Positions 51,378-64,000 of a stretch of DNA of 64,000 nucleotides are shown one piece after another. The stretch is from positions 186,001-250,000 of the forward strand of contig NZ_ATUJ01000002.1 of assembly GCF_000420145.1 (NCBI RefSeq), written 5' to 3'. Made by a program: the position numbers and the translations under genes. How positions within the stretch are numbered: position 1 is the first letter of the stretch; each line of letters opens with the position of its first letter. This stretch comes from Paracoccus zeaxanthinifaciens ATCC 21588 (lineage in GTDB: Bacteria; Pseudomonadota; Alphaproteobacteria; Rhodobacterales; Rhodobacteraceae). The notes below the pieces were generated by a model. The model was not told where the DNA came from. It searched no databases and worked only from the letters and a program-made list of their open reading frames with translations.

Positions 51378-51588
51378 GTCGTTCTCCTGGCTTGAACCTG
51401 CATGACAACATGCCGGGGGCGGCATCGTTCCCTGCGCGTCAATCGGGCGTGTTACGCGGTTGCGGCGAAAGGTCGCGCGCCGCCTGCGGGCCGTGCAGCA
51501 TCTGCAACCGATATTGACAATTCCGCGTTTCGGGCAGACCATATGTACACAATTTGTACCACGCCTAATCGCAAGGGAGAGGGGTCGA
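51378..51588. promoter_or_regulatory. Divergent spacer before the formate dehydrogenase operon
   Basis: The 211-base gap holds TTGACA at 51514-51519, a plausible -35 on the fdoG strand. An imperfect repeat, TGTACACAATTTGTACCA (around 51544-51561), follows; it could serve as an operator near the -10 region. The Shine-Dalgarno AAGGGAGAGGGG precedes ATG 51589. No regulator gene is adjacent. Confidence 0.35.
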
Positions 51589-54500
51589 ATGAATATGGAC
51601 CTTTCACGCCGCAGTTTCCTGCGGCTGGCAGGTGCAGGGGTTGCAGCGACATCGCTAGGCGCGATGGGTTTCGGCAAGGCCGAGGCGGCAGAGGCGGCAC
51701 ATGTGCGCGCCTTCAAGCTGGCCACCATGACCGAGACGCGCAACATCTGCACCTATTGTTCGGTGGCATGCGGGATCATCCTGTATTCCAAGGGTGACCT
51801 GAAGGCGGGCGAGACCGCCGAGCTGGTCCATGTCGAAGGCGATGCCGACCACCCGACGAACCGCGGCACGCTGTGCCCCAAGGGTGCCGCGCTGAAGGAT
51901 TTCGTGAAATCCGAGACCCGCGCGACCAAGCCCCGCTATCGCGCCCCCGGCGGCGGCGAATGGCAGGACATCACCTGGGACGAGGCATTCGACAAGATCG
52001 CCCGCGCCATCAAGGACGACCGCGACGCCAACATGATCGAGCGGAACGAGATCGGCACGCCGGTCAACCGCTGGACGACGGCGGGCTTCCTTGCGGCATC
52101 TGGTTCCACCAACGAGGCCGCATGGACCACCTACAAGGTCGTGCGCTCGATGGGGATGGTCGGCTTCGACAACCAGGCACGCGTCTGACACGGACCTACG
52201 GTGGCCAGTTTGGCTCCGACATTTGGCCGTGGCGCGATGACGAACGCCTGGACCGACATCAAGAATACCGACCTCGTGATCGTCATGGGCGGCAACGCCG
52301 CCGAGGCGCATCCATGTGGTTTCAAGTGGGTGACCGAAGCAAAGGCCCGTCGCGGCGCGAAGCTGATCGTGGTCGATCCGCGCTATACCCGCACCGCATC
52401 GGTGGCGGACTACTATGCCCCGATCCGTCCGGGCGCCGACATCGCCTTCCTGATGGGGGTGATCCGCTGGTGCATGGAAAACGACAAGATCCAGTGGGAA
52501 TACGTCCGCAACTATACCAACGCGGCGTTCCTGGTGAAGGACGGCTTCGGCTGGTCCGACGGGATGTTCAACGGCTATGACGAGGAGACGCGCAGCTACG
52601 ACATGGACGACTGGGAATACCAGATCGGCGATGACGGCTTCGCGATGACCGACCCGACGCTTCAGGATCCGCGCTGCGTGTGGAACCTGCTGCGCGAGCA
52701 TGTCGACGTCTATACCCCCGAATTCGTCGAGAACGTCACCGGCACGCCCAGGGACAAGTTCCTGACCATCTGCGAGATGATCGGCGAATGCAGCGCGCCC
52801 GACCGCGTCATGACCTCGGTCTATGCGCTTGGCTGGACGCAGCATTCCAAGGGTGCGCAGAACATCCGCGGCATGGCGATGCTGCAGCTGATCCTGGGCA
52901 ATATCGGCATGATGGGCGGCGGCGTGAACGCGCTGCGCGGCCATGCCAACATCCAGGGTCTGACCGATCTGGGCCTGATGTCGAACCTGATCCCGGGATA
53001 CATGAACATCCCGCGCGACACGGAAATCGACTTCGAGACCTATATCGCGGGCAAGGCGAACCCGCCCCTGCGGCCGAACCAGATCAGCTACTGGCAGAAC
53101 TACTCGAAGTTCTTCGTGTCCTTCCAGAAGGCCATGTGGGGCGACGCCGCCACCGAGGAGAACGACTGGGCCTACGACTACCTGCCCAAGCTGGACGTTC
53201 CGACCTACGACATCCTGCGCATGTTCGACATGATGTCCAAGGGCGAGGTGAACCTGTATTTCTGCCAGGGCTTCAACCCGTTCCTCAGCTTCCCGAACCG
53301 GGCCAAGCTGCTGAGCGCGCTGTCGAAGCTGAAGCTGCTGGTCGTGATGGACCCGCTGCAGACGGAAACGGCGCATTTCTGGCAGGATCACGGCATCTAC
53401 AACGATGTCGACATGGCCTCGATCCAGACCGAGGTGCTGGAACTGCCCACGACCTGCTTCGCCGAGGACGAGGGCGCGACCGTGAACTCGGGTCGCTGGC
53501 TGCAATGGCACTGGCCGGGCGCGACCGCGCCGGGGCAGGCCAAGCCGGACACCTGGATCATGTCCAACATCTTCCTGCGCGTGCGCGAACTGTATCGCAC
53601 CGAGGGCGGCGTGTTCCCCGATCCGATCGTGAACCTGAACTGGGAATACGAGGATCCGATGGAACCCTCGCCCCAGGAACTGGCCAAGGAGATGAACGGC
53701 CGCGCGCTGCGCGACGTCTATGACCTTGCCGATCCCCAAAAGCTGCTGGTCCCCGCGGGCGAGCAGGTCTCGACCTTCGCGCATCTGCGCGACGACGGAT
53801 CGACCATGGCCGGGTGCTGGATCTTCGCGGGCTCGTTCACGCCGGAAGGCAACATGATGGCGCGCCGGGACAATTCGGACCTGGGCGACACGGGGACTTT
53901 CCTGAAATGGTCCTTCGCGTGGCCGCTGAACCGCCGGATCCTGTACAACCGCGCATCGGCGGACATGAAGGGGCGCCCCTGGGACCCCGAACGCACGCTG
54001 ATCGAATGGAACGGCGAGAAGTGGGTCGGCTTCGACGTGCCCGACACGGCACCGACGGCCAAGCCCGAGGAGGTCATGCCCTTCATCATGACGCATGAGG
54101 GGGTCGGACGCCTCTTCAGCCGCAAGATGATGGTGGACGGACCCTTCCCCACGCATATGGAGCCCTTCGAGAGCCCCGTGGAGAACGTGCTGAACCGCAA
54201 GATGCGGGGCAACCCGGCTGCGCGGATCTTCCCGGGCGACCTGGAGCAGCTGGGCACCAGCGCGGACTTCCCCTTCGTCGCGACATCCTATCGCCTGACC
54301 GAGCATTTCCACTACTGGACCAAGCACAACAAGGTGAACGCCGCCTTGCAGCCCGAGTTCTTCGTGGAGATCAGCGAGGAACTGGCGGCGGAACGCGGCA
54401 TCACCAAGGGCGGGCGCGTGCGCGTCTGGTCGAACCGCGGGCAGGTCTGGGCCAAGGCCGTGGTGACCAAGCGCATCAAGCCGATGGTCTGCGACGGCAA

Positions 54501-54672
54501 GCAGGTCCACGTGGTGGGCATCCCGCTGCACTGGGGCTTCATGGGCGCCGCCAAGAAGGGCTTCGGGCCGAACAGCCTGACGCCGTTCGTGGGTGACGCG
54601 AACATCCAGACGCCCGAATACAAGGCCTTCCTTGTCAACATCGAACCCGCAGCAGAGGAGCCGGTCGCATGA
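51589..54672 (+). CDS. fdoG: Selenocysteine-containing formate dehydrogenase, catalytic subunit (in-frame TGA)
   Basis: 1027 residues if the TGA at 52186-52188 is read as selenocysteine (residue 200); E. coli FdoG has Sec at 196 and 1016 residues. The protein around it reads FDNQARV[13 protein letters not shown], matching FdnG/FdoG. A Tat signal with [10 protein letters not shown] is at the N-terminus, and the [4Fe-4S] site CTYCSVACG with a fourth cysteine in TLCPKG follows. It oxidises formate in the periplasm at a bis-MGD molybdenum or tungsten centre. Conventional annotation would split it into 51589-52188 and a part starting near 52201. Confidence 0.95.
52186..52218 (+). promoter_or_regulatory. 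Selenocysteine TGA with bacterial SECIS-like hairpin
   Basis: The TGA (52186-52188) is followed after 10 bases by a hairpin at 52199-52218: CGG pairs with CCG, an internal loop with a bulged T (52215) follows, then GCC pairs with GGC around loop AGTTT. The bulged T and a loop GT are what SelB recognises in E. coli fdhF/fdnG SECIS elements, and the distance is similar (about 11 bases there). Confidence 0.8.
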
Positions 54673-56381: not shown

Positions 56382-57296
56382 ATGACTACCACCATCCAAC
56401 CCGATCCGACGGTCATCGGCGGCGTCCCTCAGGCGCCGCTTGCCTTTCTGCCGAACCCCGCGCGGCTGTTCGCGACGCGCGCGCGGCGCTTCGACTTCCT
56501 GTCGCAGCACAGCCAGAACCTTGCGCCCTATCTGAAATTCCTGGGCGAGCTGGTGGCCCTGCAGGACCGCATCGCGCGGGATCTGCCGCAGGTGACCCCC
56601 GTCCCGCGCGACCGCATCGACCTTGCACGCGAAAGCCGCATGCCGCCGATCGACCGCGCGAAGCTGGCGACCGATCCCGATCTGCACATCCTGCTGGACC
56701 GCTTCCTGTCCGAGGCTCAGGCCATCGAGATGCCCGAGGAGGCGCGGCTTGCGCTGTCGGCCGTCATCTCGGCCGGGGTCGCGGACCGGCACTGGCTGGT
56801 CGGGAACATCCTGTCCGACACGATCCCCGATGACAGCGCAGCGCCCCACCTGTTCGCCTCGCTGGCCGTGCAGCTGCATCTGGCCCGGCTTGCTGCGACG
56901 CTGGATGCCGATGCGCTGGTCCCGATCCGCACGGGCGTCTGCCCGTCCTGCGGCGGGCGGGCGGCCACCTCGTCCCTGACCACGGTTGGCCAGCTGGAAG
57001 GCGTGCGCTATGCGACCTGCGCCTGCTGCCAGACCCGCTGGAACGAGGTCCGCGTGACCTGCCTCTGCTGCGGCTCGAACGAGGACGTGTCCTATCGCAG
57101 CGTCGAAACCGCCGAGGCCACCGTCCGCGCCGAGGAATGCGGCAAGTGCGGCCATTGGGTCAAGATCCTGACCCAGACGGCGAACCACAGCCTGGAGCCC
57201 ATCGCGGACGATGTCGGCTCGCTTGGGCTGGACCTGCTGATGAAGGACAAGGGCGTGACGCGCGGGGGCTTCAACCCCTTCCTGGCGGGGTTCTGA
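56382..57296 (+). CDS. fdhE: Formate dehydrogenase accessory protein FdhE
   Basis: 304 residues from ATG 56382 (MTTTIQPDPTV), behind AGAGAGGATC. Four CxxC pairs in the C-terminal half (CPSCGGR, CACCQTRW, CLCCGS, ECGKCGHW) are the rubredoxin-like iron sites of FdhE. It helps mature respiratory formate dehydrogenases in the cytoplasm before export. Its TGA overlaps the selA start (TGATG). Confidence 0.93.
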   Translation: MTTTIQPDPTVIGGVPQAPLAFLPNPARLFATRARRFDFLSQHSQNLAPYLKFLGELVALQDRIARDLPQVTPVPRDRIDLARESRMPPIDRAKLATDPDLHILLDRFLSEAQAIEMPEEARLALSAVISAGVADRHWLVGNILSDTIPDDSAAPHLFASLAVQLHLARLAATLDADALVPIRTGVCPSCGGRAATSSLTTVGQLEGVRYATCACCQTRWNEVRVTCLCCGSNEDVSYRSVETAEATVRAEECGKCGHWVKILTQTANHSLEPIADDVGSLGLDLLMKDKGVTRGGFNPFLAGF

Positions 57297-58672
57297 TGCA
57301 GGGCTTCCGGGCCCTGCCATCCGTCGATCAGCTGCTGCAATCGGAACCGGTCGCGGCACTGGTCGCGGAACACGGGCGGCAGGCGGTCACCGCCGCCGCC
57401 CGCACGCGTCTGGACGGCGCCCGCGATGCGATCCGCGACGGTGCCGACGGGCCCGCGCAGGCCGCCGCGCTGCCGCATCTGATCGCCGCCGACCTGGCCG
57501 CCGCCGCCGCAACGGGGCTGCGGCCCATGCTGAACCTGACCGGCACCGTCCTGCACACCAATCTGGGTCGCGCGATCCTGGCCCCCGAGGCGGTCGAGGC
57601 CGCCGCGACCGCCATGGCCGCGCCGCTCGCGCTGGAATTCGACCTTGCGACCGGCGGGCGCGGACAGCGCGACGACCACCTGCGCGACATCCTGTGCGAG
57701 CTGACCGGGGCCGAGGATGCGACCATCCTGAACAACAACGCCGCAGCCGTGCTGATCGCGCTGAACACCTTCGGGCAGGGGCGCGGCAGCATCGTGTCGC
57801 GGGGCGAGCTGATCGAGATCGGCGGCGCCTTCCGCATGCCCGACATCATGTCCCGCGCCGGCACCCGCCTGGTCGAGGTCGGGACCACGAACCGCACCCA
57901 TCCGCGCGATTACCAGTCCGCGATCGACGCGGATACGGGGCTGATCCTCAAGGTCCATACCTCGAACTATCGGATCGAGGGTTTCACCTCCGAGGTTGCG
58001 GCCCCCGAACTGTCGCGCATCGCGCGCGAGGCGGGCGTCGTGCTGCTGAACGATCTGGGCGCGGGATCGCTGGTGGACCTGTCGCGGTGGGGCCTGCGGC
58101 GCGAACCGACCGTGGCCGAGGCCGTCGCCGAGGGAGCCGACCTGGTGACCTTCTCGGGGGACAAGCTGCTGGGCGGCCCGCAGGCGGGCTTCATCGTCGG
58201 GCGGCGCGACCTGATCGCGCAGATCAACCGCAACCCGCTGAAGCGCGCGCTGCGGCTGGACAAGATCCGCATCGCGGCGCTGCAGGCGACACTGCGGCTC
58301 TATCGCGATCCGGATCGACTGGCGGAGCGTCTGCCGGTGCTGCGGATGCTGTCGCGTCCGCAGGCCGAGATTGCCGCGCAGGCCGAACGGGTGCTGCCGC
58401 AGGTGGCGAAGATCCTGTCGGGCTGGGGCTTCCATGCCGAAACCTGCGCCTGCGACAGCCAGGTGGGGTCGGGCGCGCTGCCGACCGACACGATCCCCTC
58501 GGCGGGATTGCGGCTGACGGGGCAGGGCGGCGATGCGCCCGACCGCCTTGCCGCGCGGCTGCGGGCCCTGCCGCGCCCCATCATCGGGCATATTCGCGAC
58601 GGGGCGCTTATCCTCGACCTGCGCTGCCTTGGCGCGGATGACGATCTGACGGGGGCGTTGGCCGGGCGATGA
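57296..58672 (+). CDS. selA: L-seryl-tRNA(Sec) selenium transferase
   Basis: 458 residues (family about 460). ATG 57296 overlaps the fdhE stop. LNLTGTVLHTNLGRA and EFDLATGGRGQRD are SelA signatures; Lys290 in FSGDKLLGG binds pyridoxal phosphate. It converts Ser-tRNA(Sec) to Sec-tRNA(Sec) with selenophosphate. The downstream selB and tRNA gene complete the recoding apparatus apart from selD. Confidence 0.96.
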   Translation: MQGFRALPSVDQLLQSEPVAALVAEHGRQAVTAAARTRLDGARDAIRDGADGPAQAAALPHLIAADLAAAAATGLRPMLNLTGTVLHTNLGRAILAPEAVEAAATAMAAPLALEFDLATGGRGQRDDHLRDILCELTGAEDATILNNNAAAVLIALNTFGQGRGSIVSRGELIEIGGAFRMPDIMSRAGTRLVEVGTTNRTHPRDYQSAIDADTGLILKVHTSNYRIEGFTSEVAAPELSRIAREAGVVLLNDLGAGSLVDLSRWGLRREPTVAEAVAEGADLVTFSGDKLLGGPQAGFIVGRRDLIAQINRNPLKRALRLDKIRIAALQATLRLYRDPDRLAERLPVLRMLSRPQAEIAAQAERVLPQVAKILSGWGFHAETCACDSQVGSGALPTDTIPSAGLRLTGQGGDAPDRLAARLRALPRPIIGHIRDGALILDLRCLGADDDLTGALAGR

Positions 58673-60537
58673 TCGTCGGAACCGCAGGACATATCGACCA
58701 CGGCAAGACCGCCCTCGTGAAGGCGCTGACCGGCACCGATGCCGATCGCCTGGCCGAGGAGAAGGCCCGTGGCATCACCATCGACCTGGGCTTCGCCTAT
58801 GCCGATCTGGGCGGCGGCGGCGTCACGGGCTTCGTCGATGTTCCCGGACACGAGCGGCTGATCCACACCATGCTTGCCGGTGCGGGCGGGATCGACATGG
58901 CGCTGCTGATCGTGGCGGCGGATGACGGGATCATGCCGCAGACGCGCGAACATCTGGCCATCCTGGACCTGCTGGGCCTTAACCGTGCAATCGTGGCGCT
59001 GACGAAATGCGACCTCGTGGATGACGACCGCCTGTCGCAGGTCCGCGCGCAGATCGGGGATGCGCTGGCACCCACGCTGCTGGCGGGTGCGCCGGTGATG
59101 CCCGTATCCGCCGTCACGGGCGCGGGGATCGACGCGCTGCGGGATGCGCTGATCCGGGCCGAGGCCGCGACCGCCGCCCGCGCCGATGCGCTGCCGCTGC
59201 GCATGTCGGTCGACCGCAGCTTTACCCTGTCGGGGGCGGGGACGGTCGTGACGGGCATGGTCGTGCAGGGGCGCGTCTCGGTCGGGGATCAGGTCGTGAT
59301 CGGGCCGGAGGGGATCGCGGCCCGTGTGCGGGGCGTCCACGCGCAGAACCGCGCCGCAACCACGGGCGTCGCGGGCCAGCGTTGCGCGGTCAACCTGGCG
59401 GGCGAGGGGATCGCCAAGGACGCGATCCATCGCGGCGACATGCTGATGGCGCCCGAGCTTCTGGCCCCGACGGACCGGATCGACGCCTGGCTGTCGGTCC
59501 TGCCGTCGGAACCCAAGCCCGTCGGCACCTGGTTTCCCGCCCGCCTGCACAGCCATGCCGCCGAACGCGGCGCGAGGATCGTGCCCTTGGGCGATCCGAT
59601 CCGCCCGGGCGAGGGCGGGCCGGTGCAGATCGTGCTGGACCGTCCGGTCGCGGGCGCGGTGGGCGACCGCTTCGTGCTGCGCGACGTCTCGGCCAGTCGG
59701 ACCATCGGCGGGGGGCGGTTCCTGGACCTGCGCCCGCCCGCACGGCGCAGGCGCACGCCCGAACGGCTTGCGCTGATCGGGGCCGCGCGGCTGCCCGATC
59801 CGCTGCCGCGCATGCTGGACATCGCGCCGGTCGATCTGCGCGTCTTCTTCCGCGACAGGGGTCTGCCGCAGGACGACCGCATCCCGAACTTCGTGGGCGT
59901 CGCGCTGTCGGACGCGCATCTCGCGGGCCTGCAGCATCAACTGACCGAACAGCTTGCGGCCTTCCACAAAGAAAACCCCGACATGCCGGGCCTTGGTCGC
60001 GAAAGGCTGCGCCTGTCGATGCAGCCGCGCCTGCCCAAGGACGCGCATCTGGCCTTCCTGCGGTCCGAGGCCGCCGAGGGTCGCGTCGTGCTGGACGGGG
60101 CCTTCCTGCGGCTGCCCGGCCACTCGGTCCGCCTGTCCCCCGAGGACGAGGCGATATGGCAGCGCGTGCATCCGGTCCTGGTCGGGGAACAGCGCTTCCG
60201 CCCGCCGCGCGTGCGCGACTTCGCGACCGAGTTCGGAGTCGATGAACGCGACCTGCGCCGCGCGATGCGCCTGACGCAGAAGTTGGGCCTGACCGATCAG
60301 GTGGCCACCGACCACTTCTTCGCCCGAGAGGTCACGATCGAGATGCTGGCCATCCTGCGCGACGTGGCCGATCAGGCCGAGGGCGACTGGTTCGCGGCCC
60401 CCGCGTTCCGCGACCGGCTGAACAACGGTCGCAAGGTCGCGATCGAGATCCTGGACTTCTTCGACAGGCTGGGTGTGACAATCCGGCGCGGGGACATGCG
60501 CAAGCTGAACCCGCATCGGCTGGATCTGTTCGGATAA
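58669..60537 (+). CDS. selB: Selenocysteine-specific elongation factor SelB
   Basis: 622 residues (E. coli 614), ATGA overlap with selA. G1 AGHIDHGKTALVKAL (from residue 5), DVPGHE and TKCD are the GTPase motifs; EF-Tu-like domains follow and the C-terminal ~200 residues are winged-helix repeats that grip the SECIS hairpin. It brings Sec-tRNA to ribosomes paused at the fdoG TGA. The tRNA gene begins 59 bases after its stop. Confidence 0.96.
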   Translation: MIVGTAGHIDHGKTALVKALTGTDADRLAEEKARGITIDLGFAYADLGGGGVTGFVDVPGHERLIHTMLAGAGGIDMALLIVAADDGIMPQTREHLAILDLLGLNRAIVALTKCDLVDDDRLSQVRAQIGDALAPTLLAGAPVMPVSAVTGAGIDALRDALIRAEAATAARADALPLRMSVDRSFTLSGAGTVVTGMVVQGRVSVGDQVVIGPEGIAARVRGVHAQNRAATTGVAGQRCAVNLAGEGIAKDAIHRGDMLMAPELLAPTDRIDAWLSVLPSEPKPVGTWFPARLHSHAAERGARIVPLGDPIRPGEGGPVQIVLDRPVAGAVGDRFVLRDVSASRTIGGGRFLDLRPPARRRRTPERLALIGAARLPDPLPRMLDIAPVDLRVFFRDRGLPQDDRIPNFVGVALSDAHLAGLQHQLTEQLAAFHKENPDMPGLGRERLRLSMQPRLPKDAHLAFLRSEAAEGRVVLDGAFLRLPGHSVRLSPEDEAIWQRVHPVLVGEQRFRPPRVRDFATEFGVDERDLRRAMRLTQKLGLTDQVATDHFFAREVTIEMLAILRDVADQAEGDWFAAPAFRDRLNNGRKVAIEILDFFDRLGVTIRRGDMRKLNPHRLDLFG

Positions 60538-60596
60538 GGCGCTTGCAAAGGGCGCGGGGCTTGGCCATCAAGGCCGTCCCGCGCATGGCGCGTCAT

Positions 60597-60692
60597 GGAA
60601 GGGAATCGTCCCCGGTGGGGCGGCCGGACTTCAAATCCGGTTGGGGCAGCGAGCCTGTCCCGGGTGGGTTCGACTCCCATTCCCTTCCGCCA
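60597..60692 (+). tRNA. selC: tRNA-Sec (anticodon TCA)
   Basis: 96 bases including an encoded CCA. The 8-bp acceptor GGAAGGGA/TCCCTTCC, longer than the usual 7 bp, the extended variable arm (about 60644-60662, GGGGCAG paired with CTGTCCC), and anticodon TCA at 60631-60633 in loop CTTCAAA define tRNA-Sec. It closely resembles E. coli selC. Its 3' end is one base from the nrsF-like stop codon on the other strand. Confidence 0.96.
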
Positions 60693-60693
60693 A

Positions 60694-61335
60694 TCACCAG
60701 CGCAGCCAGCGGCGTCCCAGAACGGCCCCGATCAGGGTCGCGATGCAGATGCCCATCCCGTACCAGGTGACATAGAACAGCGGGTTGTCCTCGGCGCAGT
60801 GGAGGGCATAGCCCGCGGCAGCACCCGCCCCCGATGCCAGCCCGATCAGCGCGCCCGTCAGGGTCGGACGCGTCGTGGCGCCCCGGCGCATCAGCGCGAT
60901 CCCCACGACGATGGGCGTCAGCGACAGCACCGTGATCGAGGTCAGGCAGGCCGCGACGGTATTGCCCATGATCCCGCGCGGGATCTGCGCGACAGGCGTT
61001 TCCGCAAGCGTCGCCACGAACAGCGCGGCGGCCAGTCCGGCGGGCAGCAGCAGCAGCCAGACGGGGGGCTCGGCCTCGGGGCGGGCGGTCATCATGGCGG
61101 CGGGCAGCGCGATTGCGGCCAGCGCCAGCGGAATGGCATTCTTGGCCAGCGTCACCGGCGTCGTCAGCGCATGGGCCAGGTCGGGCCGCAGGCCGGTGCC
61201 GATCAGCAGCAGCACGAGGCCGATGCCGACCAGCCCCACGATCTGCAGCGCGATGCGGGACATGCGCAGCCGGGGCGGCGCAGGCATGGCCGCAAGGCTG
61301 GCGATCAGGTCTTCGGTGGTCTGTCGTTCGCTCAT
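60694..61335 (-). CDS. nrsF: NrsF-type (DUF1109) anti-sigma factor
   Basis: 213 residues with six hydrophobic segments after a short cytoplasmic N-terminus (MSERQTTEDLIASLAAM). The DUF1109 pattern, ending in LHCAEDNPLFYVTWYGMGI with a conserved cysteine, is that of NrsF, which holds the ECF sigma factor SigF at the membrane in Caulobacter. The start overlaps the sigma stop as ATGA, as expected for a co-produced pair. Confidence 0.87.
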   Translation of the reverse strand: MSERQTTEDLIASLAAMPAPPRLRMSRIALQIVGLVGIGLVLLLIGTGLRPDLAHALTTPVTLAKNAIPLALAAIALPAAMMTARPEAEPPVWLLLLPAGLAAALFVATLAETPVAQIPRGIMGNTVAACLTSITVLSLTPIVVGIALMRRGATTRPTLTGALIGLASGAGAAAGYALHCAEDNPLFYVTWYGMGICIATLIGAVLGRRWLRW

Positions 61336-61973
61336 CTCGTCATCCTCTCCGCCAGGGCGCTCAGGCGCTTCATCGCCCTGTGCATCGATACCCGTGCGGC
61401 TCCTGCGCTGAGCCCGACGCGTTCTCCGGCGGTCTCGGCGCTTTCACCTTCGATCGCGATCGCGCGCACGATTGTGGCCGATCGCTCGTCTATCTGGTCC
61501 AGCATGGCCGACAGGTCGCGGGCGGCCATGGGTTCGTCGCTTCGTTCGGCGGGCAGCGTCTCCTCGAATGCCTCGATGGGCACCTGGATCGCGCTGCCGC
61601 GCTTGCGGAATGCATCGACGATCTTGTGTCGCGCCACCGCATAGAGCCAGGGCCGCACGGGCCTGTCGCCCTGCCATGTCCCCCGCTTCAGATGGACCGC
61701 CAGAAGGACCTCCTGCAGGATGTCCTCGTGTTCGTCGCTGCCCATCGTGCCGGCGCGTGCGCGGATGATGCCGCGCATGACCGGCGTGATCAGTGTCAGG
61801 AACCGCGCAAATGCGGCGCCGTCGCCCGCGTTCGCGGCCGTCAACAGCCTTTCCCATTCGCCCTGCGGTTCCAGCGCGACCTCCCGTCCGTTATCGAAGC
61901 TGGCGCCCAAAATAGCGCTTCGAACGGAGCCGAGGCAATGCCGGGGGGCCGCATATGACTGGACGAAGGCCAT
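61332..61973 (-). CDS. sigF: ECF sigma factor, SigF-like
   Basis: 213 residues; ATG 61973 has GAGGAAGACG upstream. Region 2 is visible in EDILQEVLLAVHLKRGTW and RPWLYAVARHKIVDAFRKRG, and region 4 in ETAGERVGLSAGAARVSMHRAMKRL. It belongs to the SigF group paired with NrsF and known to control bufferin genes. The N-terminal ~35 residues are longer than core ECF proteins and could mean a later start. It lies downstream of doxX in the same operon. Confidence 0.85.
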   Translation of the reverse strand: MAFVQSYAAPRHCLGSVRSAILGASFDNGREVALEPQGEWERLLTAANAGDGAAFARFLTLITPVMRGIIRARAGTMGSDEHEDILQEVLLAVHLKRGTWQGDRPVRPWLYAVARHKIVDAFRKRGSAIQVPIEAFEETLPAERSDEPMAARDLSAMLDQIDERSATIVRAIAIEGESAETAGERVGLSAGAARVSMHRAMKRLSALAERMTR

Positions 61974-61983
61974 CACGTCTTCC

Positions 61984-62400
61984 TCAGTCCAGCCGCAGGG
62001 CGCGGTCGATGGACCAGCGTCCCGGCCCGTGGACGATCACCGCAAGCAGGGCGGCGGCCCACAACCCGTGGGTGATCCACGCCCCCGGATAGACGAAGAC
62101 CTGGATCACCGCCGTCATCGCCAGCAGCCCCAGGGCCGACAGCCGCGTCATCAGCCCAAGGATCATCAGGACCGGCAGGACATGTTCCGCGACCGTCGCC
62201 ATTACCGCCGCCCAGTCGGACGGGAGCAGGGGCAGGGCGTATTCGTGTTCGAACAGGAACCAGGTCGATTCCTTGATGCCGAAGCCCTCGACCTTGGTGC
62301 GGCCCGATTGCAGGAAGACCATCGCCGGAAAGACGCGCAGGGCCAGCGCGGGAATGTCGCGCGGAATGGCTGCAAGGACGGTGTTCAACGTCGCGATCAT
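61984..62400 (-). CDS. DoxX-family membrane protein
   Basis: 138 residues with four hydrophobic segments; ATG 62400 overlaps the DUF2063 stop as [26 protein letters not shown] near the N-terminus and [18 protein letters not shown] in the middle are DoxX-like. DoxX proteins commonly accompany DUF692/DUF2063/DUF2282 genes. The biochemical role is unclear, possibly membrane redox support of the peptide system. Confidence 0.85.
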
Positions 62401-63152
62401 GGCGCTTCCTCCTGCGCGCTGGTGATGGCCCCGCCCGACATCAGCCGCACGAGGATGTGCTGCGCCGAATGGTCGGGATCGATCCGCAGCGCGCATCGGG
62501 CCGCATCGGCAAGGGGGCGGCCCTGCTGCAGGGCCTCGATCAGGGCGGCGTCGGCTTCGGCAATGCCCACGACATGGACCTGAAACGCCGGGTCGCGCAG
62601 GATCAGCGCGGTCTCGGCCCGCGCATGGTCGCGGACGGGCGGGCCGTCCGGCTGGTTCGCCAGCCAGACCGAGATCGCCGCATGCCCGAAGCGCAGCACC
62701 TGGACCGAGGGGTGCAGCCCCAGGATCAGCCGGTCGGGCGCGCAAGCCGCAAGATCGCCCGGTGCCACCGGCATCGCGTCGGCGGCGTGGAAGGCGCGGC
62801 CCCGCGCATGTTCCAGCCGCGCCACGTCGGCCATGTAGGGATGGGCGACCAGCGGTGCGAAACCGCGAAGGAAATCGGCAAAGCCCTCGCCCCATTCCGC
62901 GATGACGGGGCTGGCGGGGCGGTCGTCGCGGATGAAGCCCCGCGCCAGCGCCGCAAAGAATTCCTCGCCCACCAGGCGGCGGATGACGGGGAAACGGGCG
63001 GCCAGTGCCTCGGACAGGCCGACGGCCACGTTGTTGCGATAGACCGCGAAACGCTGGCCGGTCTCGGCCGGATCGATGGCGGTCAGTCCGGGGGGCAGGG
63101 TGCCGTCCTGCAGGCCCGCCCGGAACGCGGTCAGGAAATCACTGTGCGGCAA
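62397..63152 (-). CDS. bufC: DUF2063 RiPP-maturation partner protein (BufC/HvfC-like)
   Basis: 251 residues with a proposed TTG start at 63152 ([14 protein letters not shown]), because AAAGGGGGCAG lies 8 bases upstream and the family begins at this point; ATG 63182 is an alternative. The N-terminal part ([34 protein letters not shown]) is the DUF2063 hallmark, shown here only by its position ~residues 30-65. It works with the DUF692 enzyme, holding the precursor peptide. It overlaps bufB by 14 bases. Confidence 0.85.
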
Positions 63153-63987
63153 GGCTCTGCCCCCTTTCGCGAAGGATTGCATCGGCGCGTGCGGCCTCGG
63201 CGGCCAGCACGGACCATTCGGGAACGTCGTTGTCCCATTCGACCAGCGTGGGCAGCGGCCCCGTGCGGGCAATGATGTCGCGAAACAGCGCCCAGACCGG
63301 ATCGGCCACGGGCGCGCCGTGGCTGTCGATCAGCAGCGGCCCCGAGGGCAGGTCCTCCTGGTCGTGGCCGCCCAGATGGATCTCGGCCACGAGGTCCAGC
63401 CGGAATTCCGCAAGATAGTCCAGCGGATCGCGGCGATGGTTCGCGCAGGACACGAAGACGTTGTTCACGTCCAGCAGCAGCCCGCAGCCGGTGCGGTCGG
63501 CGACACTCGCCATGAACTCGGGCTCGGGTATGGTCGACTGTTCGAACAGCACATAGGTCGCGGGGTTCTCCAGCAGCATTTGGCGGCCCAGAACCTCCTG
63601 CACGCGGTCGACGTGATCGGCCACGATCTGCAGCGTCTGCTCGGTATAGGGCAGGGGCAGCAGGTCGTTCAGATATTCCGCCCCGTGGCTGGACCATGCG
63701 AGATGCTCGGAAAAACTGTCGGGCTGGTAACGGTCGCAGAGGGTCTTCAGCCGCGCCAGGTGATCCTCGTCCAGCCCCTTGTGGCCGCCGATCGACAGGC
63801 CGACGCCATGCACCGACAGCGGGTGATCGGCGCGCAGCGCGGTCAGCTGCGCATGGGGCAGCCCGCCCGCGCCCATGTAGTTCTCGGCATGGACCTCGAA
63901 GAAGCCGACCGGACCGGGGTTGCGAGCGATATCGGCGAAGTGCTTCGACTTGAAGCCGACACCGGGGCGTGCGGGAAGATGGGACAT
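63139..63987 (-). CDS. bufB: DUF692 multinuclear iron-dependent oxidative enzyme (MNIO, BufB/HvfB-like)
   Basis: 282 residues from ATG 63987, with AAGGTG nine bases upstream (a GTG three codons earlier is possible). The conserved DUF692 blocks are all present: [52 protein letters not shown] and IDSHG, which supply the iron ligands of the TIM barrel. Enzymes of this family (MbnB, HvfB, bufferin BufB) oxidise cysteines of a ribosomal peptide into copper-binding heterocycles. The peptide gene is expected upstream, past 64000. Confidence 0.92.
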
Positions 63988-64000
63988 GGTGTTCACCTTG

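Follow-up and report, generated by a model that had tools for sequence, protein, structure and literature searches.

How is a bufferin operon controlled when the genes for its own sigma factor and anti-sigma factor are the last genes of that operon? The question is raised by a 64,000-nucleotide stretch of Paracoccus zeaxanthinifaciens ATCC 21588 (the window; C2:186001-250000 of the 3.05 Mb genome, G000), at whose 3' end lies a set of minus-strand genes in the order bufA-bufB-bufC-doxX-sigF-nrsF, the first of them just outside the window. As judged from family matches, the locus is a Buf1 bufferin operon with a SigF-NrsF regulator pair, a kind of system that is already known. From its sequence and from the behavior of studied relatives, we hold it to be highly probable that the operon is governed by SigF-NrsF, that it encodes a copper-binding peptide, and that the regulators combine a basal sigma70-like supply with feedback by read-through from the start of the operon.

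A SigF-type promoter and a Buf1 precursor

The evidence that carries this reading begins with the sequence TGTAACGATCGGTTCGGTCGCTCCGAA, a SigF box located 55 bp 5' of bufA. This box matches the published ECF16 consensus, (T/C)GTAAC-N17-CGAA (PMC8315932), exactly and also fits the Caulobacter SigF box, GTAACC-N16-CGAA (PMC3511200). The initial annotation had predicted a small exported, cysteine-containing DUF2282-like precursor upstream of bufB, just past position 64000 on the minus strand, and reading the continuation of the contig revealed such a gene. BufA matches PF10048 (DUF2282) at 5.3e-25, over the cut-off, has a Sec-type signal sequence that ends in TPVHA (read by eye), and carries four core cysteines that correspond to the Buf1 pattern and are retained in 97 of 98 relatives; 78 bp separate it from bufB downstream. 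A DsbA-family oxidoreductase gene lies upstream of bufA on the same strand as a separate gene. Two tandem DUF2282 genes precede bufB in Hyphomicrobiales loci including L027, L028, L031 and L033.

The remaining genes were assigned by family matches. BufB scores 381.8 bits against NCBIfam MNIO_BufB (cut-off 310) and matches Pfam MbnB_TglH_ChrH with an E value of 1.3e-104; its conserved H/D/E/N residues are present in the window and retained in 89-96 of 98 relatives, and the closest solved structure by sequence is 3bww, with MbnB structures next. BufC passes the cut-off for Pfam DUF2063 (4e-24) and DoxX that for Pfam DoxX (2e-17), with HvfC-like and HvfX-like NCBIfam scores of 60.3 and 55.6 bits that fall below their cut-offs of 142 and 80, respectively; according to the literature, DUF2063 partner proteins are RRE-bearing. 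SigF, which was aligned with 69 relatives, matches Sigma70_r2 (7.8e-9) and Sigma70_r4_2 and reaches a PRK12512 score of 194.2, just below the cut-off of 198. NrsF passes the cut-off for Pfam NrsF (DUF1109) at 6.2e-49 and reaches only 70.8 against a cut-off of 300 for the NCBIfam NrsF equivalog. Moreover, Cys130 and Cys180 of NrsF, retained in 87/88 and 88/88 relatives, correspond to the regulatory C131 and C181 of Caulobacter NrsF, replacement of which frees SigF (PMC3511200). The bufB, nrsF and DUF2282 genes each occur in a single copy in the genome.

Reading of the frames together with these matches bore out the order and coordinates initially given for bufB, bufC, doxX, sigF and nrsF, and the description as a Buf1-type operon with SigF-NrsF regulators at its 3' end agrees with the family matches and with a SigF-type promoter ahead of the whole operon. 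The genes had been said to overlap in nearly all cases: this holds for bufB/bufC, bufC/doxX and sigF/nrsF, and fails for doxX/sigF, where the first ATG follows after 10 bp and the start that homologues suggest after ~110 bp. Read-through of a TGA codon, which would fuse bufB to bufC, was considered and rejected, these being just two overlapping genes.

Features of the operon and of other genes behind predicted SigF boxes (window numbering unless a contig is given)
Feature	Position	Strand	Description
SigF box	64427-64453 (outside window)		55 bp ahead of bufA; exact TGTAAC-N17-CGAA
bufA	C2:250066-250371 (64066-64371 in window numbering; outside window, contig continuation)	minus	101 aa, DUF2282
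bufB	63139-63987	minus	MNIO (DUF692) bufferin maturase, 282 aa
bufC	62397-63149	minus	DUF2063 partner of MNIO enzyme; start TTG, overlaps bufB
doxX	61984-62398	minus	small DoxX-family membrane protein; ATGA overlap with bufC
sigF	61332-61973 (start uncertain)	minus	sigma factor of ECF16 type; 213 aa if started at ATG 61973, ~180 aa from internal start
Putative sigma70-like promoter of sigF	61909-61938	minus	TTGCCT (61938-61933), 18 bp, TATTTT (61914-61909)
Likely ribosome-binding site of short SigF form	61880-61885	minus	GGGAGG; start would be CTG at 61874-61872
nrsF	60694-61335	minus	six-helix membrane anti-sigma factor, final operon gene
Exported YHS-like protein (L142)	G000:C2:54872-55443		box 32 bp upstream; YHS 28.6 bits, just below cut-off 30.3
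Second DoxX-like gene (L143)	G000:C3 near 1083		behind SigF box; 21.5, below cut-off 23.6
VTT-domain + pyridine-nucleotide-disulfide oxidoreductase fusion (L144)	G000:C11:50405 on		behind SigF box; 716 aa

Two wirings of one regulator pair

Is the position of the regulators at the end of the operon peculiar to this genome? Loci of BufB relatives and of further genomes of the genus were annotated with purpose-made profiles, which gave 88 loci with a readable order; for ten others, the available DNA contains no nrsF. In 71 of the 88 the order is divergent, such that nrsF-sigF points away from bufA, and in 17, the window included, it is co-directional with the regulators last. A SigF box lies 5' of bufA in every co-directional locus (17/17) and in 63/71 divergent ones. 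A box 5' of sigF was found in 67 of 69 testable divergent loci and in none of the 17 co-directional loci, including the window. An own SigF box before sigF is typical of ECF16 or SigF-NrsF pairs and is not required for membership. Frames of bufB or nrsF are broken in relatives L093, L096 and L110, reflecting either operon decay or sequencing errors.

One hypothesis is that sigF-nrsF are neighbors of the buf genes by chance and do not control them. Against this stand the boxes before bufA in both types of locus, the linkage of sigF-nrsF to buf genes retained across Rhodobacterales and Hyphomicrobiales, and the published SigF control of such genes in Caulobacter and Sinorhizobium (PMC3511200, PMC6180224), and we regard it as extremely improbable. 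Two changes of gene order are needed on the BufB tree and one on the NrsF tree, as opposed to 13.4 with shuffled labels. The co-directional order, a rearrangement common to these relatives in which the regulators lost their self-activating promoter, thus likely arose about once; because support at the key fork of the NrsF tree is low, a single origin is likely rather than proven. Both orders occur within the genus of the window, and the three experimentally described loci are all divergent (PMC3511200, PMC6180224, PMC10304878). One sigma/anti-sigma pair and its target box exist in one genus in two wirings, a divergent one in which sigF activates itself and a co-directional one in which it does not, which makes a natural experiment on the effect of autoregulation of an extracytoplasmic function (ECF) sigma factor on a metal response.

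The doxX-sigF interval

If sigF has no SigF box of its own, what drives its expression? The simplest hypothesis is that a single transcript from the bufA promoter is the only source of sigF-nrsF, which would then rise with the bufferin genes and need no second promoter. The two genes doxX and sigF are on the same strand with a short gap, neither a SigF box nor a terminator was found between them, and in most co-directional loci the sigF frame is open back to a start beside the doxX stop. However, production of SigF that depends on SigF needs a basal source, and the sigma/anti-sigma pair of Cupriavidus, rpoQ-rsqA, is itself RpoD-dependent (PMC10304878). Furthermore, the distance from the doxX stop to the conserved sigF core is ~90-170 bp across the co-directional loci, and this interval holds a TTGCC-N18-TAGACT-like element at a conserved aligned position and, in most loci, a GGAGG and an NTG start codon 18-21 bp ahead of the core. 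Added up over 13 lineages, canonical sigma70 scores reach 98, as opposed to 81.5 ± 2.6 for shuffled sequences (maximum 91), and in locus L113 a break of the frame forces an internal sigF start. For these reasons the single-transcript hypothesis appears possible and somewhat unlikely, and the conserved element and the internal start instead suggest a separate basal expression of sigF.

The same interval was considered as coding sequence. Its frame 0 is free of stops in 18/18 loci (the other frames hold 22 and 19 stops, partly the TAG of the -10 element), and the distances between its landmarks differ by multiples of three, which keep an N-terminal extension of SigF possible; the frame break in L113 opposes it. 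In the putative extension, unlike the core, no codon position stands out in substitutions and GC content is flat by position, and an extension under amino-acid selection was rejected as a simple reading. The coding tests thus disagree, and the promoter reading is preferred over the coding one, while a longer form of SigF may also arise from a start further upstream in the same frame. A more speculative proposal, which we consider quite unlikely, is that the co-directional interval serves two purposes: the sigma70-like promoter and internal start would supply short SigF constantly, and on the stress transcript ribosomes leaving doxX would make a longer SigF with a cysteine-containing tail, such that a basal sigma factor and an induced one would both come from one gene. 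In the co-directional loci L009, L016, L095 and L097, doxX and sigF are separated by an additional gene for a membrane protein that looks CcdA-like by eye.

With a putative second promoter preferred, the interpretation given in the initial annotation is, as a whole, partly supported, because the system had already been described, sigF does not overlap doxX, and the elements of the interval point to a second, sigma70-like promoter.

The SigF regulon beyond the operon

The box with a leading T occurs five times in the genome, as opposed to zero times for a reversed control pattern; no such enrichment was found across the genus as a whole, and the looser GTAACR-N16-CGAA showed no genome-wide excess over its control (7 vs 6). 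Four of the five boxes, that of bufA among them, sit 32-70 bp ahead of a gene start, where the share of sites so placed by chance is ~5% (P ~3e-5, a rough estimate). As predicted from these boxes, the SigF regulon extends beyond the operon. The fifth box, at C2:22269-22295, was set aside as chance; it overlaps a palindrome, GTTAC...GTAAC, that resembles a Zur box and precedes an opposite-strand gene for a CobW-type GTPase. Among relatives, a relaxed box lies upstream in 16/30 VTT-oxidoreductase loci and 7/12 YHS loci, counts that include the window genome's own loci, as compared with 0/2065 control windows; both genes thus carry the box in several species of the genus. The VTT-oxidoreductase gene adjoins the buf operon in genomes G029 and G005, and in G111 it shares a contig with bufA and lies close to it. 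This proximity in two or three relatives supports a joint function, and the VTT-domain oxidoreductase and the exported YHS-like protein are new candidate members of the SigF regulon.

An alternative hypothesis drawn from this wider set is that the regulators answer chiefly to oxidative or sulfur stress, the bufferin genes being a branch of a wider redox response and not a copper system. The identical box before the oxidoreductase, YHS-like and second DoxX-like genes would fit such a response, and other ECF16 sigma factors respond to hypochlorite or peroxide (PMC8315932). However, in the closest system studied so far the most pronounced phenotype published is that for copper (PMC8224329), and the precursor carries the copper-binding Buf1 pattern, which leave the alternative unlikely.

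Proposed mechanism

We hypothesize that NrsF keeps SigF held at the membrane and that metal or oxidative stress acting on its two cysteines releases SigF, which would then read the TGTAAC-N17-CGAA box ahead of bufA. BufB and BufC would convert the two central cysteines of BufA to thiooxazoles, as indicated for relatives in PMC13097082 and PMC12452194, and BufA would be exported by Sec, the mature peptide probably binding excess copper in the periplasm. Within the doxX-sigF interval, the putative sigma70-like promoter would keep the regulators sigF-nrsF constantly supplied at a basal level. Transcripts reading through from the bufA promoter would boost both, so that positive feedback by SigF and negative feedback by NrsF would act together. 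Such feedback via co-transcription with the buf genes is plausible. The role in copper handling is assigned by analogy with relatives (PMC8224329, PMC12452194): copper induces the whole Caulobacter SigF regulon together with sigF itself, and a mutant in sigF shows copper sensitivity (PMC8224329). Several observations weigh against this account. In the window the sigma70-like element is a weak one and on its own not significant (p = 0.12), and a generic promoter scan found no strong sigma70 promoter and did not pick up the putative one of sigF. In addition, relatives of SigF also answer to chromate, cadmium and hypochlorite, and for this reason the natural inducer may be something other than copper.

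The gene for the selenocysteine tRNA (tRNA-Sec; 60596-60692, plus strand) is convergent with nrsF and ends 1 bp from the nrsF stop. No terminator was seen between the two, and buf read-through would therefore run antisense into tRNA-Sec. Adjoining it are selA and selB (57137-60537, plus strand). A formate dehydrogenase frame (51406-54669, plus strand) is interrupted by a single TGA at position 52186, within the motif RVUHGPTVA, which indicates a selenoprotein.

Comparison with known systems

Bufferin systems with sigma and anti-sigma genes are already described (PMC3511200, PMC6180224, PMC12452194), and captophorins has been proposed as a class name for bufferins (PMC13097082). The locus resembles the Buf1 clusters of a published survey in its DUF2282 precursor with four cysteines and a Sec signal, MNIO enzyme, DUF2063 partner, DoxX, sigma factor and NrsF; the survey lists the sigma and NrsF genes, and its text does not distinguish divergent from co-directional orders (PMC12452194). 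With CC3254-CC3257 of Caulobacter (bufferin 1) it shares the set and the order of the four structural genes, the sigma/anti-sigma families, the promoter box and the two NrsF cysteines (PMC3511200, PMC8224329). However, sigF-nrsF of Caulobacter form a separate unit with their own SigF-dependent promoter and a further regulator, whereas in the locus described here the pair follows the buf genes at their 3' end and has no SigF box. In Sinorhizobium meliloti (RpoE7-EcfR7 with SMb20530-SMb20527), an ECF16 sigma factor likewise controls genes for DUF692 and DUF2063 proteins and the box is the same, but the units are divergent with a box ahead of each (PMC6180224). The gigPABT genes of Cupriavidus metallidurans, induced by copper and gold, are also divergent from their regulators rpoQ-rsqA, unlike the order seen here (PMC10304878). 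The chemistry of such systems is known, and what sets the P. zeaxanthinifaciens locus apart is its control wiring, a variant that it has in common with a lineage of relatives.
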